Positions 5,123 to 27,884 of a DNA stretch of 35,818 nucleotides are shown piece by piece. The stretch lies in IMG/VR virus record IMGVR_UViG_3300036785_000354, positions 1 through 35,818 of that record. One strand, written 5' to 3'. The notes below the pieces were generated by a model. The model did no database searches, was not told the DNA's origin, and saw only the letters and a program-made list of their open reading frames with translations. The DNA comes from a virus. The position numbers and the translations under genes were made by a program. Each line of letters begins with the position of its first letter. Positions within the stretch are counted from its first letter, which is position 1.

Positions 5123-6370
5123 ATGGCGATTCAAGACTTGAAACTTCGCCGCGGCCAGTGTGGCACGCAGGCACAAAAAATTCTAACGACGCCAGGTTGC
5201 ACGGCCGAGCAGCGGGCCGAGGCGAGTCGGTTGCTCGACGAGGCCGACGCGTTAACCGAGCAAATCACCTTGCTTGAGCGGGCCGAACACTGGCGCGAGA
5301 TTCCGTCGACGCCGCGGCCGGCGCCGGGCGCCGATCACGTCGACGACGACGAGCGCGAGGCCGGGCAGCGCATGACGCAATACCGCAACGCGTTCGAGGT
5401 TTACATGCGCGGCGGGGAGAGAAGTTTGCGCGACAACGAACGGGCCTTGCTCGCAAGCGGGCAAAGGAAACTCGACCACAATCCGATTTTGATCGGCGGC
5501 GAAAAGCGCGATATCACGATCGGCGGGACGGGAAACTATATCGTGCCGCAGGAGTTTTACAACGAGCTCATTTCGGCGTCGAAATACATCGGCGCGTTGT
5601 ACGGCAACGTCAAGAAAAAGACCACGCCGGGCAACGGGGCGCCGATGAAAATCGGTTACGAAAACGACACGGCAAACACGGTTGTCGTAGTGGCCGAAAA
5701 TACGCCGGTGACCGAAGCCGACCCGCTTTTTTCGGGGGTCATTCAATCAACCGACACGCTCGCGACCATGATCAAGGTGAGCCGCCAGGAGCTCGCCGAC
5801 TCCGGTTTTGATTTGCCTGCATTGTTTCGCGATCGGCTCGGTAAACGGTTTTTACGCGGGCTCGAGAACTTTATCGCGGTTGGCGACGCCGCGAACATTG
5901 CGAGCCTGACGGCCGGCACGACGATATTCGCGACGACCGCGGCGGCGACCGGGCCGACTTATCCCGATTACGTTGCGTGCCAAAGTCTGCTCGATGTGAG
6001 TTACGAGCCGGCCGCGGCCTGGTACATGAACAAAGCGAGCCGGAATTACACAATGGGTTTGCTCGACACGCTCAATCGGCCGCTTTTCCTGCCGAATCCA
6101 CAGACCGGGATGCTTGATCAGATTCTCGGTTTCCCGATTCGGCTTACGTCGTATCTTCCAAGCGCGGCCGTCGCGGCGGCGTACGGGATCATTTACGGCG
6201 ACCTCGAGGAACAGTATTTGCTCCGCAATGACGGGGAAATGACCATGCAGCGGCTCGACGAACGTTATGCGGATCAACTGATGGTCGGATTCCTCGCTTA
6301 CATGCGCGCCGGCGGCAATGTGACCGATGCCGGCACGCATCCTTGCGTCGGCCTGAAAACTCACGTGTAG
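5123..6370 (+). CDS. Major capsid protein, HK97 fold, with N-terminal scaffolding (delta) domain
   Basis: 415 aa. Builds the icosahedral head. Residues 1 to about 100 are charged and helical (starting MAIQDLKLRRGQCGTQ), the typical delta domain removed by the protease. The HK97 fold starts near TIGGTGNYIVPQEFYNELIS and includes LATMIKVSRQELADS and the long E-loop/P-domain region. Start: ATG at 5123 with AAAGGA eight bases upstream; the alternative ATG at 5081 fits the family less well. A strong factor-independent terminator follows the stop, as is common after capsid genes. Confidence 0.94.
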   Translation: MAIQDLKLRRGQCGTQAQKILTTPGCTAEQRAEASRLLDEADALTEQITLLERAEHWREIPSTPRPAPGADHVDDDEREAGQRMTQYRNAFEVYMRGGERSLRDNERALLASGQRKLDHNPILIGGEKRDITIGGTGNYIVPQEFYNELISASKYIGALYGNVKKKTTPGNGAPMKIGYENDTANTVVVVAENTPVTEADPLFSGVIQSTDTLATMIKVSRQELADSGFDLPALFRDRLGKRFLRGLENFIAVGDAANIASLTAGTTIFATTAAATGPTYPDYVACQSLLDVSYEPAAAWYMNKASRNYTMGLLDTLNRPLFLPNPQTGMLDQILGFPIRLTSYLPSAAVAAAYGIIYGDLEEQYLLRNDGEMTMQRLDERYADQLMVGFLAYMRAGGNVTDAGTHPCVGLKTHV

Positions 6371-21174: not shown

Positions 21175-21202
21175 TTGGGGCGTGGCTCTACTCTGCTATA
21201 CT
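21175..21202 (+). promoter_or_regulatory. Predicted integrase promoter with an arm-type site in its spacer
   Basis: -10-like TATACT (21197-21202) and a weak -35-like TTGGGG (21175-21180), spaced 16 bp, end 38 bp before the integrase start. The spacer and the last -35 base coincide with GCGTGGCTCTACTC (21180-21193), one of five copies of the 14-bp motif that flanks the putative attP. Binding there would block RNA polymerase, suggesting integrase autoregulation. Confidence 0.55.
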
Positions 21203-21240: not shown

Positions 21241-22407
21241 ATGGGCGCCATGAAACACACGCCAGGGCACATCGATTGCCCGGCGTGCGATGGGATAACT
21301 AACATGGAAACTCACACAATTTCGGGTAACATGCCGTTCGAAGCGGCATTCAATCGCTGGATTGATAACTTGACAATTCAGCGCGCGGGCGTTCTTACAA
21401 ACGCTCGTTATCTTTCCGACCGAGGGATATCGGACCTCAAACAATATGCACGGGCGGCGAGCCGGTTTTTTGGCAAGATTCCGCTCGCGAAGATCCACGC
21501 CGGCCATTTGATGACCTATCAACAGGCGCGCGCGATTTGCGATAACTCGGTTCTCGACGACGGCGTCGAAAATGGTTGGGCGGCGCCGGCGGGCGCGAAC
21601 CTGATTCGCAAAGAGGTTCAAATCGTGGTGCGGTTGATGAAAGCCGCCGACGTTTGGGATAAAGAGAAGATGGCGCGCACCTGGCGGCCGCTCGAGGTTG
21701 TAGTTAGCGACGTGGGACAGGCCTTGACGCCGCGCGAACAACAAATTTGGCTCGAGACGGCCGCCCGCCGGCCAGAGTGGCAAGCGATTTACTGGTACAC
21801 GATTGTCGGGCTCGAGACGTCGTGCTCGTCGGATGAATTGCGCGGCTTGCGGCTCGGCGACATTTTTCTCGATCAAGGAATTCTCGAGGTACGCAAGGGA
21901 AAAAACGTGCATCGCAAACGCACGATTCCGTTGCAATCCGAGCGGGTCATTTGGGCGCTCTCGAAATTGATGGAGCAGGCCGCGAGCCGCGGCGCGCGCG
22001 AGCCTTACCATTACCTGTTTCCCTTGCACCTGACCTTTAATCGCTACGACCCGAACAAGCCGATGACCGTCTCGGGAATTAAAAAACCGTGGATGGCGGT
22101 GCGCCACGCCGCGGGCCTGCCGAATTTTCGGCCGTACGATTTGCGCCACACGGCGATAACGCGCATGGCTGAGGCGAATTTGCCGATCCATGTGATTCTC
22201 GCTTTCGCCGGGCACATTTCGTTTGCGATGCAACAGCACTACACGCACATTTCGATGAACGCAAAGCGGCGTTGGGCGGCGAGTGCATTCGCCGGCGCCG
22301 AGATGCCGTACGGGCCGAGCTCGGGATCCGGCGCGGCCTGGCACGAGCCGGCGCCCGCGGTTCTGGCCGTGCCGACGCCGGCCGCGCAAGGGCGCCTGAT
22401 GCGATGA
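21241..22407 (+). CDS. int: Tyrosine recombinase integrase, divergent active site
   Basis: 388 aa. Catalyses phage integration and, with a partner, excision. A CPAC pair (residues 13-16) precedes an N-terminal arm region. The SAM-like core-binding domain covers about 33-150, the catalytic domain 160-340. Visible active-site residues are the beta-strand lysine (EVRKGKNVHRKRTIPL), Arg302 in YDLRHTAITR, His325 in AGHISFAM and Tyr334 in HYTH. The first catalytic arginine is replaced: the segment ETSCSSDELRGLR has Ser196 where TGxR has Arg. The first His of HxLR is Tyr299. I recall acidobacterial integrases with a similar 'ELRGLRLGDI' signature. ATG at 21241 (or 21250) after AGAGG. Confidence 0.93.
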   Translation: MGAMKHTPGHIDCPACDGITNMETHTISGNMPFEAAFNRWIDNLTIQRAGVLTNARYLSDRGISDLKQYARAASRFFGKIPLAKIHAGHLMTYQQARAICDNSVLDDGVENGWAAPAGANLIRKEVQIVVRLMKAADVWDKEKMARTWRPLEVVVSDVGQALTPREQQIWLETAARRPEWQAIYWYTIVGLETSCSSDELRGLRLGDIFLDQGILEVRKGKNVHRKRTIPLQSERVIWALSKLMEQAASRGAREPYHYLFPLHLTFNRYDPNKPMTVSGIKKPWMAVRHAAGLPNFRPYDLRHTAITRMAEANLPIHVILAFAGHISFAMQQHYTHISMNAKRRWAASAFAGAEMPYGPSSGSGAAWHEPAPAVLAVPTPAAQGRLMR

Positions 22408-22791: not shown

Positions 22792-23101
22792 AATTCCTCA
22801 ACGAAAGCGAATTAGTAGCTTGTTCGAGATATGACAATTTAATGACAACTTTTTCCTTGACGGTGCGTGTTACTCGCTGGTAACGTCTCAAATCGAGCAC
22901 TGGTTATGAACTAGATCGAATTCGGGTAATTTTAGTAACTCTAAGTTAAGAGCATGCACGCGCGGTTTTATCAAACCGCAAGCGATTGCGTGCCATACTT
23001 CGCAGACGCGCCGGGCACGCGTTGACCCCATTGCGAGAAACTAACCCCCAAAACCTTTTTTCAGAAATTCGACATTGAGAAACGAAAGGTTTGGTTTCTT
23101 T
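22792..23101 (+). promoter_or_regulatory. Gene-free control region with a promoter, palindrome and hairpins
   Basis: No gene. Promoter candidate: TTGACG (22857-22862), 18-bp spacer, TAACGT (22881-22886). The palindrome GTTAC-tcgctg-GTAAC (22869-22884) overlaps the spacer and -10 and looks like an operator. Just upstream, ATGACAA occurs twice (22831-22837, 22842-22848), 11 bp apart. Downstream the leader could form GCGGTTT-tatc-AAACCGC (22962-22979) and GCGTGCC/GGCACGC (22988-22994 with 23014-23020). It probably drives the accessory genes from 23102. Confidence 0.5.
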
Positions 23102-23695
23102 ATGGAGAGTGATTCTGCGCGTGTGCCTGGCGCCATGCGCAATTTGCCGCTTTATGACGGGTGGCCGGTTCCGTGGTTCGCATCCTGGGAGGATCACAAG
23201 CCGAACCTGGCCGCGGGCATGTCGGACGAGAAATTTTCACGGGCGCTAGTGCATCGGGTGTGCATCGTTTGCGGGCATTCAATCAAGGCGCCGCTTGCAT
23301 TCGTCGACGGCGTGCGTTTAGGGATTGAACAAGCCGCGCTCGTGCCGGCGTCGCATATCGACTGCGCGCAATGGGTCGCGGCGCGCGTGGAACATTTGCC
23401 GCGGCCGCCGAGCTCAGATGGTGGGCCGCCTGGCGGTTTTGGCCTGGTGCGGCTTTTGTGGATATGTCGAGGTTGGGAGTTGCGACACACGAACGGCCAG
23501 GCGCGGTTTACTCTCTGGGCGCCCGAGACGGTCGAGTGGTACATGCACGGACGATCGGCCAGGCGGTTCGAGGTTCTTGATTCTCTCGAGGCGAGCCGGC
23601 GCGAGCTCGAGCGGCTCGCGCTCACCTGGTCGGGCGGCCTGGCCGAACTGCGCCGGCGGCGCGCGAGGTTGGAGAGATGGCTTCCCAACAATTAA
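23102..23695 (+). CDS. Conserved phage protein with a zinc-ribbon motif, unknown function
   Basis: 197 aa. Sequence DGWPVPWFASW, then HRVCIVCGHSI, then VPASHIDCAQWVAAR fits a family I recall from actinophage and other phage genomes ('rG.PvPWFv.w.dG.p.f', 'R.CwvCG..lg', 'PPSHldCA.w'). The CxxC...HxxC residues probably bind zinc. The second half is mixed alpha/beta with FTLWAPETVEWYMHGR and a helical C-terminus. Function is unknown in the family. Start at ATG 23102; an in-frame TTG at 23075 is possible but has no ribosome-binding site. First gene of an accessory operon. Confidence 0.7.
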   Translation: MESDSARVPGAMRNLPLYDGWPVPWFASWEDHKPNLAAGMSDEKFSRALVHRVCIVCGHSIKAPLAFVDGVRLGIEQAALVPASHIDCAQWVAARVEHLPRPPSSDGGPPGGFGLVRLLWICRGWELRHTNGQARFTLWAPETVEWYMHGRSARRFEVLDSLEASRRELERLALTWSGGLAELRRRRARLERWLPNN

Positions 23696-24021: not shown

Positions 24022-24077
24022 ACTGGCCGCATGCGTTGTTACTCCTGGCGCTCGGTTGCCAAACGGTTGCTTACTAA
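23991..24077 (+). CDS. Possible 28-residue lipoprotein-like peptide
   Basis: A short frame with a good ribosome-binding site (GAGGGTG before the ATG), overlapping the previous gene by 31 bp. Product: MDKDAKKNRVNWPH, then hydrophobic ALLLLALGC and QTVAY. A positively charged start, hydrophobic core and Gly-Cys resemble a lipoprotein signal peptide, although the residues at -2 and -3 (Leu, Ala) are not ideal for a lipobox, and only five residues follow the Cys. It may be a leader peptide for the structured region that follows. Uncertain. Confidence 0.35.
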   Translation: MDKDAKKNRVNWPHALLLLALGCQTVAY

Positions 24078-24307
24078 GGTTTGTCGAGCCCGTCGGGAGC
24101 CGGCTCGACAAAGGGAAAGGGCGCGGGGCGCAGGGGTTTTCCCCAGTCTGCCAGTCCTGCGCCTGGCATGGGCCGCGCTCTTTCCTTCGCATGCCGCGGC
24201 GGGCTATTCCACCCGGCGGGGGCCGTGGCCGGCCTTTGTCGGAGCTCGCCGCGGCGGCGGGAAATGGTTCGAGGTTTTATCTAAAGAAAAACCGGAGGGT
24301 TAACGAA
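24078..24307 (+). ncRNA. Gene-free, strongly structured leader upstream of the 24308 gene
   Basis: About 230 bp with no credible gene. Inverted repeats: a perfect 11-bp stem TTTGTCGAGCC (24080-24090) with GGCTCGACAAA (24102-24112), 11-nt loop; GGCGCAGG (24127-24134) with CCTGCGCC (24156-24163); and inside it GGGG-tttt-CCCC (24133-24144), which competes for part of the stem. None is followed by a T-run, so these are not simple terminators. The segment ends in GGAGGG, the ribosome-binding site of the next gene. It could be a regulatory 5' leader or a separate RNA. Confidence 0.4.
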
Positions 24308-26215: not shown

Positions 26216-26410
26216 ATGGCCGCGCCATACTTGGAAGAATTAGAACAAGCATTTTTAGCAGGGGCGGGAGACTTAATCACAGCGGCTGAGATGTGCGGCA
26301 TTGACTTCGAGTCTGCGTGTCTGAGTTTCAACAATGGTTTGATTAAGGGTTACTGGCGCATCGTGGTTAATCCGCCAGGGTACAGACTGCCTGTGCAAAT
26401 TGCGCGATAA
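26216..26410 (+). CDS. Small protein next to the attachment region; possible regulator
   Basis: 64 aa. ATG at 26216 after GAAAGGGG. The segment GDLITAAEMCGIDFESACLS, followed by FNNGLIKGYWRIV, could be a helix-turn-helix with a short wing, but the match is weak. Because it is the last gene before the putative attP, an excisionase or transcription factor role is possible. This is inference from position; no Xis family signature is visible. Confidence 0.55.
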   Translation: MAAPYLEELEQAFLAGAGDLITAAEMCGIDFESACLSFNNGLIKGYWRIVVNPPGYRLPVQIAR

Positions 26411-26450
26411 AAAGTGGAATCAACAGGTTGCGCGGCGGCAAATTTTTCGG

Positions 26451-26478
26451 TTGCAAAGTGATCATTTGCTTTTATGAT
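26451..26478 (+). promoter_or_regulatory. Predicted promoter with operator palindrome for the structured RNA
   Basis: -35-like TTGCAA (26451-26456), 16-bp spacer, -10 TATGAT (26473-26478, one mismatch to consensus). The near-palindrome GCAAAGTGATCATTTGC (26453-26469) overlaps the -35 and spacer and looks like an operator. The expected start of transcription, about 7 bases after the -10, is 26484-26486, exactly where the closing helix of the structured RNA begins. Confidence 0.6.
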
Positions 26479-26483
26479 TTTGC

Positions 26484-26736
26484 CTTCCCTGGTAAGGCCT
26501 GATTCGGGGAAACCAGAATGAGTGAGCGCACCAAACGAGCGAGCTCGAATCAGGCCAGGGGAAGAGAAGCGGCGACCGCGCCCGAAGGCGCCGGCCAAAG
26601 TCGGTAACATACCGACGGTGCACCTGTCAAACTGAGTAGAGCAACGGATCGAGACAGGGGCACGAATTCAATTTCGGGCGTTTTGGCTCAAGTTTCACAC
26701 GTGCAAGGGGTTAGAGAGTAGAGCCACGGTTTTTTT
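26484..26736 (+). ncRNA. Candidate structured small RNA (about 250 nt) with its own promoter and terminator
   Basis: Helices seen: CTTCCC (26484-26489) with GGGAAG (26559-26564), continued by a perfect 11-bp stem GGCCTGATTCG (26496-26506) with CGAATCAGGCC (26546-26556); GCGCC-cgaa-GGCGC (26578-26591); GTCGGT-aacat-ACCGAC (26600-26616); an 11-bp stem with one mismatch, GTGCACCTGTC (26618-26628) with GACAGGGGCAC (26653-26663). The unit ends in TGGCTC (26684-26689) with GAGCCA (26721-26726), followed by CGGTTTTTTT, a plausible terminator despite its 31-nt loop. No conserved ORF; no known RNA family recognised. Two 14-bp arm-type motifs lie inside it. Confidence 0.55.
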
Positions 26737-26746
26737 GGGGTGCTAT

Positions 26747-26796
26747 GCGCCCTTTTAAGGCGGATGTCGCCGGTTCAAGTCCGGCCGGGCTCACTT
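26747..26796 (+). repeat. 3' half of a tRNA-Lys(UUU) gene (likely attP core, identity block with the host)
   Basis: From 26747 the sequence folds as the 3' half of a tRNA: anticodon stem GCGCC / GGCGG with loop CTTTTAA (anticodon TTT, Lys), variable region ATGTC, T arm GCCGG-TTCAAGT-CCGGC, acceptor strand CGGGCTC and discriminator A at 26793. CCA is not encoded. The 5' half is absent: the bases where the D arm should be read T7-G4. Phages that integrate into tRNA genes carry exactly this part so that the host gene is restored after insertion. Confidence 0.7.
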
Positions 26797-26863
26797 AACC
26801 ACTACATCTTGTGTAACTCCGAAGCAAAAACCCCAAAATCTAGCTTTTTCCACAACTAGAGCG

Positions 26864-26897
26864 ACGCATTGCGGGACGTGTGTCTACCCGAATGCGT
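26864..26897 (+). promoter_or_regulatory. Hairpin in the leader of the 26940 gene
   Basis: ACGCATTGCGGG (26864-26875) pairs with CCCGAATGCGT (26887-26897) as 11 bp with one bulged G and an 11-nt loop. Its right arm overlaps the third arm-type motif (26894-26907). No T-run follows, so it is not a terminator. Possibly a translation control element, or a protein-binding inverted repeat in the attachment region. Confidence 0.4.
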
Positions 26898-26939
26898 GGC
26901 TCTACTGAGGGCGAACCTTTGTTTTCAGGGGGTTACCGG

Positions 26940-27884
26940 ATGATAAAAAAGCGAGTCTCGTCTCAACTGAGAAAAGGCGCCAGGAACCGCGCCCACGCGC
27001 ACGGTGGTTCTACTCACCCGCCAGGAGAGAAAAGCGGCGTCGACACGCCCGGTAAACCGGGAGCTTCGAAACCACAAAAGTTGTGGGCCGGCTTTGTCCG
27101 GCTCTTGTTTGCGGCGCGCAACCTGGTCGTCGGCCTGCGCTATTGCCACGCCGGCGAGCCCGCGATGTACTGCTCGGTTTGCGATATGCGCCTGGCCGGC
27201 GACGGGTGGGCGGCCGGGCCGCATGCGTCGACATGTCCCGTCGGCCAGGTGGCCGCGGTGATCGATGAGCTCATGCGGACGGCGACGGTTGAGGAATTGG
27301 GCCGCGCGCTCGCGGGTGAGGGATCGGGCGAGCCGGATCCGGCCGAGGGCGCCGCGGTTTTCCCCTGGCCGCGGCCGCCGGCCAGAAACGCGCCAGGGGC
27401 GCCAGGCGAGCCCGCCGGCGACGAGATGAGCCGTGAGGCCGCCGCGCGCCTGGCGGCCTGGCGAGGGCGCGGGCGCAAGCCGCCGGCGCGGGCCGAGGTT
27501 GCGGGTGCCGATGCGGTTGCGATCGAGTCGCGCGGGATGGTCGATTTCGGGGAGCCGTGGCAAGTGGGAAAGATTGACGGCGGGCTCGTGGCGGCCGTCG
27601 ACCGGGCCGGCGAGTTGAGATTTGCCGGCCTGGGCGCCGGGGCTGAGGCCGTGGCAGTCCGGCGGGTGGCGGCTTGCGTGAATCTTTGTGCCGGCGCGCC
27701 GACCGAGGCGCTCGAATTCGCTTACGACGAGATTTCGGCGAGCTCGCCGCAATGGGCCTTACTCGCGCTCAATATTTCGAATCTAAGCCGCGCCCACGTC
27801 GCAATGGTGCGCGACTACATCGACGACGTTGTGAAAGCCGCGGCGCGCCAGGATAAAAGCCGCGGGTTCGGCCGGCCGCAGTAA
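26940..27884 (+). CDS. Phage protein with zinc-finger motif and NxCAGxxTE-type C-terminal domain
   Basis: 314 aa. ATG at 26940 has an ideal AGGGGG 7 bases upstream; the frame is open from 26880 but crosses a hairpin. The basic N-terminus contains an arm-type repeat at DNA level. A CSVCDM...HASTCPVG motif (about residues 77-100) probably binds zinc. A Pro/Ala/Gly-rich linker follows. The C-terminal domain has VAVRRVAACVNLCAGAPTEA, like the 'RIvaCvNaCaGi.tE.Le' motif of many uncharacterised phage early proteins. Function unknown. First gene of the early operon. Confidence 0.65.
   Translation: MIKKRVSSQLRKGARNRAHAHGGSTHPPGEKSGVDTPGKPGASKPQKLWAGFVRLLFAARNLVVGLRYCHAGEPAMYCSVCDMRLAGDGWAAGPHASTCPVGQVAAVIDELMRTATVEELGRALAGEGSGEPDPAEGAAVFPWPRPPARNAPGAPGEPAGDEMSREAAARLAAWRGRGRKPPARAEVAGADAVAIESRGMVDFGEPWQVGKIDGGLVAAVDRAGELRFAGLGAGAEAVAVRRVAACVNLCAGAPTEALEFAYDEISASSPQWALLALNISNLSRAHVAMVRDYIDDVVKAAARQDKSRGFGRPQ

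Follow-up and report, generated by a model that had tools for sequence, protein, structure and literature searches.

Does a compact, strongly folding segment beside a phage attachment site give rise to an RNA of its own, to the leader of a neighboring operon, or to no functional RNA at all? We addressed this question for positions 26451–26736 of a 35.8-kb phage record from IMG/VR (IMGVR_UViG_3300036785_000354; the window is this whole record, 35,818 nt), which a preliminary description had presented as a compact, undescribed small-RNA gene inside the left arm of attP. The structured segment lies beside attP, some 4 kb downstream from the integrase gene; across its region (24.0–26.7 kb) the related phages examined share no gene with this phage, apart from a short ORF whose match is distant. 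Such a location, as of accessory cargo, speaks for an RNA. Judged from its predicted structure and surroundings, the segment is an orphan candidate and plausibly a small RNA or a leader RNA. The features discussed are listed in Table 1.

Table 1. Features of the attachment site, the structured segment and their surroundings.
Feature	Coordinates	Strand	Basis
Tyrosine integrase	21241..22407	+	50% identical integrase in G011
Sigma-70-like promoter TTGCAA-N16-TATGAT, predicted start ~26484	26451..26478	+	Consensus scan and PWM
Hairpin P1, 7 + 11 bp, 5-nt bulge, 39-nt apical loop	26484..26564	+	Ensemble folding
Branched domain, closing helix 26578-26586/26673-26681 (9 pairs, one G-U)	26578..26681	+	Ensemble folding
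Hairpin GTCGGTA-ACA-TACCGAC, 7 bp	26600..26616	+	Pair probability at least 0.77
Hairpin, 10 pairs, one A-G mismatch	26618..26663	+	Pair probability at least 0.97
Arm-type site, left arm, distal, GAGTAGAGCAACGG	26634..26647	+	Motif search
Weak stem and T7, claimed terminator (unsupported)	26684..26736	+	Terminator scan and folding
Arm-type site, left arm, near core, GAGTAGAGCCACGG	26716..26729	+	Motif search
attP core, 3' half of tRNA-Lys(TTT)	26747..26793	+	tRNA match and relative G011
Arm-type site, right arm, inverted	26895..26906	-	Motif search
First gene beyond attP, unknown function	26940..27884	+	Start codon by inspection of sequence
Arm-type site, right arm, inverted, diverged	27003..27013	-	Motif search

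The attachment site and its relatives

A terminase gene lies at position 523 of the record, and searching with the terminase yielded 37 related loci. One of these, the 36.7 kb prophage G011, has an integrase 50% identical to that of the phage; a complete tRNA-Lys(TTT) gene borders this prophage at one end and the 3' half of the gene at the other, and the sequence common to the two ends begins at CTTTTAA, in the anticodon loop. The core in our phage is likewise a tRNA 3' half and corresponds to the att site of this homologous integrase, with CTTTTAA at 26752–26758, in the anticodon loop, as the probable 7-bp crossover region. Around the core, the arm-type motif GTAGAGCMACG is direct on one side (26636 and 26718, + strand) and inverted on the other (26895, - strand, with a diverged copy at 27003, - strand), which is the arrangement of a lambda-type attP. 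The arms of G011 carry a diverged form of the motif in identical orientations (GTCGAGCGACGCC and GTCGAACGACGCC on the left, inverted GGCGTCGTTAGAC on the right), a match that supports the arm-type assignment. The left-arm setting given in the preliminary description is thus borne out by the tRNA-Lys(TTT) core, the G011 flanks and the shared arm motifs, and both arm-type motifs that it placed in the segment are real. On these sequence comparisons, an attP with a tRNA-Lys(TTT) core is well supported, as is its membership of a known attP type. Searches of the GTDB genome collection with a 42- and a 25-nt core found no sequenced host tRNA that matches exactly. Probably either the host lacks a genome sequence or the core has diverged, and attP as such is not defined by an exact match of this kind.

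The arm-type motif also recurs beyond the attP. A perfect copy at 21181–21194 (- strand), upstream of the integrase gene, falls within that gene's best promoter-like site, between its -35-like and its -10-like box, suggesting that the integrase may repress its own gene through this copy. In addition, the arm motif GTAGAGCAACG (26636–26646) recurs unchanged in the tRNA-Lys gene of the G011 attachment site (L069:3621-3631, - strand), where it forms the D-arm/anticodon-stem junction directly adjoining the core, and the G011 arm motif resembles this junction too; the arm sites may thus be mimics of the target tRNA or have arisen from it. A read-through tRNA-like fold involving the arm-site GAGCC appeared in folds and was discarded, ARAGORN giving no call. 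Two closer relatives, G006 and G010 (L072, L073), with terminases 88% identical to that of the phage, have an unrelated integrase in opposite orientation and their own att region in place of the module, which on this comparison is swapped as a block among related phages.

Promoter and predicted fold

The promoter-like site at 26451–26478 is present as claimed and ranks sixth in the whole phage by PWM, both strands counted. A consensus scan found two such sites in 5 kb against 1.3 expected, so that the mere presence of a match is weak evidence. The predicted start at ~26484 coincides, as the preliminary description had it, with the first base pair of hairpin P1. That the sixth-best promoter of the phage should start on this pair argues for an RNA. 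The spacer of this promoter contains a palindrome (GCAAAGTGATCATTTGC), which we rejected as an operator given its imperfect symmetry and the absence of a second good copy.

P1 is an 18-bp imperfect hairpin (26484–26490/26558–26564 plus 26496–26506/26546–26556), formed by an 11-bp perfect inverted repeat and a 7-pair extension, with sub-domain z-values of -3.75 (+) and -4.07 (-). Perfect inverted repeats of at least 11 bp with loops up to 60 number six in the phage and 0–3 in its shuffles, and the P1 repeat therefore counts in favor of an RNA. Besides both P1 arms, the robust helices of the ensemble are 26578–26586/26673–26681, 26600–26606/26610–26616 and 26618–26628/26653–26663, the last carrying the distal arm-type site in its loop. 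The four further strong hairpins originally described are thus more exactly a 9-bp long-range helix, a 3-bp stem, a 7-bp hairpin and a 10-pair hairpin, whereas the last stem (26684–26726) is weak.

Stretches starting at 26484 fold with z-values of -4.5 to -5.2, which favors an RNA: -4.5 on the plus and -3.9 on the minus strand for 26484–26736, and -5.2 and -2.9, respectively, for 26484–26700, a 3' end picked post hoc; 26485–26736 gave -3.8 (200 shuffles). As a control, 950 windows of the same phage were scored on an unselected grid (mean z -0.5, sd 1.3) and the top 24 re-scored. The grid window nearest the segment reached -3.8, and five others -4.1 to -4.9, among them a capsid gene region (5476–5692). 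The fold of the segment is extreme for this phage without being unique. It is unusual yet not decisive, since comparable values occur elsewhere in the phage and folding of the minus strand is nearly as strong as that of the plus strand, save when the 3' end is set at 26700. Both the nearly equal folding of several phage windows, coding ones included, and a strand preference that hinges on the chosen 3' end weigh against an RNA. Two other strongly folding stretches of the plus strand are 24076–24292 (z -4.9), in which a perfect inverted repeat of 11 bp lies at 24080, and 22951–23167 (z -4.5).

These same values bear on the main rival explanation, that the segment is attP left arm and intergenic DNA with no functional RNA, its inverted repeats being incidental or protein-binding (for accessory factors or attP insulation) and its promoter match fortuitous. 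Good folding on both strands, z-values equalled elsewhere in the phage and a 3' third that is demonstrably attP arm all fit this explanation, which we nevertheless consider somewhat unlikely. Fold z-values in the G011, G006 and G010 att regions range from -1.1 to +1.7, so that structured attP arms are no general feature of these phages; even G011, despite its homologous integrase, has a left arm without structure. This lack of structure in relatives, with z-values about zero, favors an RNA, and half of the structure in our phage lies upstream of the distal arm-type site. A purely fortuitous promoter would also have to start by coincidence at the first pair of a helix.

The 3' end and the gene beyond attP

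The terminator claimed for the end of the segment did not hold up. A terminator scan made no call at the stem and T7 run of 26684–26736, and 26688–26736 folds no better than chance (z +1.1). The right half of the last stem is the arm-type site itself, and a 9-bp inverted repeat flanks the attP core, TTTTGGGGT at 26733–26741 having a perfect inverted copy, ACCCCAAAA, at 26830–26838; these are possible sites for accessory proteins. The inverted partner of the T-run and GGGGT across the core suggests attP architecture, and the stem and T-run are better explained as attP DNA than as a terminator, a point that also fits the DNA-only explanation given above. Of the promoter and terminator expected of an RNA gene, the former is present and the latter was not called; the want of a convincing terminator counts against a stand-alone RNA.

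The 3' end also bears on a second explanation, in which the segment is the structured 5' leader of the operon beginning with the 26940 gene. The 26451 promoter would read through attP in the free phage, with the hairpins and T-run serving as attenuator or insulator, and integration would sever promoter and leader from the operon as an integration-dependent switch. The gene does lie downstream of this promoter in the free phage and apart from it in a lysogen. By PWM the 26451 site is the sole strong plus-strand site within 26410–26940, with none comparable within 26560–26940 (best score 9.0 vs 12.9), no good terminator precedes attP, and a plausible ribosome site (CAGGGGG) stands ahead of the 26940 start. 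This explanation is also favored by related phages that retain a homologue of the gene although their integrase and att region differ. Against it, the sequence upstream of the homologue is quite different and no conserved leader is seen. The leader would moreover be about 450 nt long, crossing the tRNA half and four arm-type sites, and the T7 run would interfere. On balance we regard this explanation as unlikely, and more so than the DNA-only one.

Coding potential and homologue searches

As stated earlier, no protein gene fits the segment, which is in keeping with an RNA: the longest plus-strand ORFs have 29 codons (ATG) and 37 codons (GTG), and an 86-codon minus-strand ORF lacks a third-position GC excess. 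It is very improbable that a short ORF in the P1 loop (29 codons from ATG 26518, or 37 from GTG 26522) is translated under the control of P1. GGGGA precedes ATG 26518 at a plausible distance, but ORFs of such size are common by chance and tblastn found no match in 50,697 phage records.

The Rfam search proposed in the preliminary description gave no family match at gathering score, and at E<=10 nothing beyond the tRNA half and chance matches. Searches with blastn against phage and plasmid records returned tRNA or chance matches only, no homologue of the element was present in 25 related virus records, and nhmmer found none in all loci retrieved by that stage. Probing viral contigs with the integrase, its neighbor protein and small ORFs identified no matching contig with the element. 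Two hairpin-pattern scans covered 2.9 million viral contigs, where exact patterns exclude near-identical copies only; that for P1 had zero matches. The pattern GGTAACATACC..CACCTGTC had eight, in apparently coding DNA without further similarity to the element, and was set aside. The term "undescribed" thus holds within the libraries searched. With no homologue there is neither covariation nor a sign of selection on the pairs, which counts against an RNA, as does the finding that antisense complementarity of the loops to phage gene starts is no better than that of shuffled loops.

Discussion

We favor, at slightly less than even confidence, a rightward structured transcript from ~26484, just upstream of the attachment site, with a stand-alone RNA slightly likelier than a leader. 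The promoter match, the fold and the overlap with a true attP arm are observed; transcription, an RNA function and integrase interference are inferred. Transcription would start at ~26484, and the first ~200 nt would fold into P1 and then the branched domain, yielding a stand-alone structured RNA carried as cargo of the accessory region next to attP. As the last third of this RNA doubles as the attP P arm, integrase bound to the arm-type sites should block or pause polymerase. Integration would then swap the downstream DNA, from the 26940 operon in the free phage to host sequence that follows a tRNA remnant once the phage is a prophage. Of the original "compact small-RNA gene", the attP setting, arm motifs, promoter and fold stand, whereas the RNA gene itself is a candidate only: no homologue allows covariation analysis, the 3' end is unconvincing, and a leader or plain attP DNA fits nearly as well.

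A bolder form of the favored reading is that an RNA gene is at once the attP P arm and that a hairpin loop displays the distal arm-type site; integrase occupancy and integration would then determine both RNA synthesis and its joining to the phage operon, coupling the RNA to integration state. We consider this improbable as a whole. If the RNA is real, site-specific recombination would itself rewire transcription of a phage RNA, tying RNA output to the lysogenic state in a simple way. Even as an orphan candidate, the segment makes attP arms worth examining as transcribed sequence.

Several known systems invite comparison. Phages and prophages encode the structured RNAs GOLLD and ROOL, which often lie near tRNA sequences, many GOLLD exceeding 800 nt (PMC12286853). 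Our candidate would likewise be a structured phage RNA near a tRNA sequence, but it has no match in Rfam, which holds both families, no covariation support and no tRNA island, its only tRNA half being the att core; it is assigned to no known RNA family. The prophage regulatory sRNA svsR (PMC12803456), recognized through alignment of a 77-nt region with a host sRNA and located at the 3' end of cI, comes from a temperate phage, as does our small-RNA candidate, whereas the segment is ~200–250 nt, multi-branched, beside attP and without a relative.

In BPs-like mycobacteriophages, attP lies inside the repressor gene itself. If the segment were a leader, and in that case only, the likeness would be an attP position that lets integration alter a transcription unit; in those phages, whose immunity is integration-dependent (PMC4557955), this serves immunity, whereas here it would detach the promoter and its leader from an operon of unknown function. 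The closest counterpart of the attachment site is integration at attB-4, a tRNA-Lys(TTT) gene, by mycobacteriophages with a tyrosine integrase, a tRNA 3' half core, an anticodon-loop crossover and flanking arm-type sites (PMC10865867). The att type is the same in our different phage, where in addition a structured segment and a promoter overlap the left arm.
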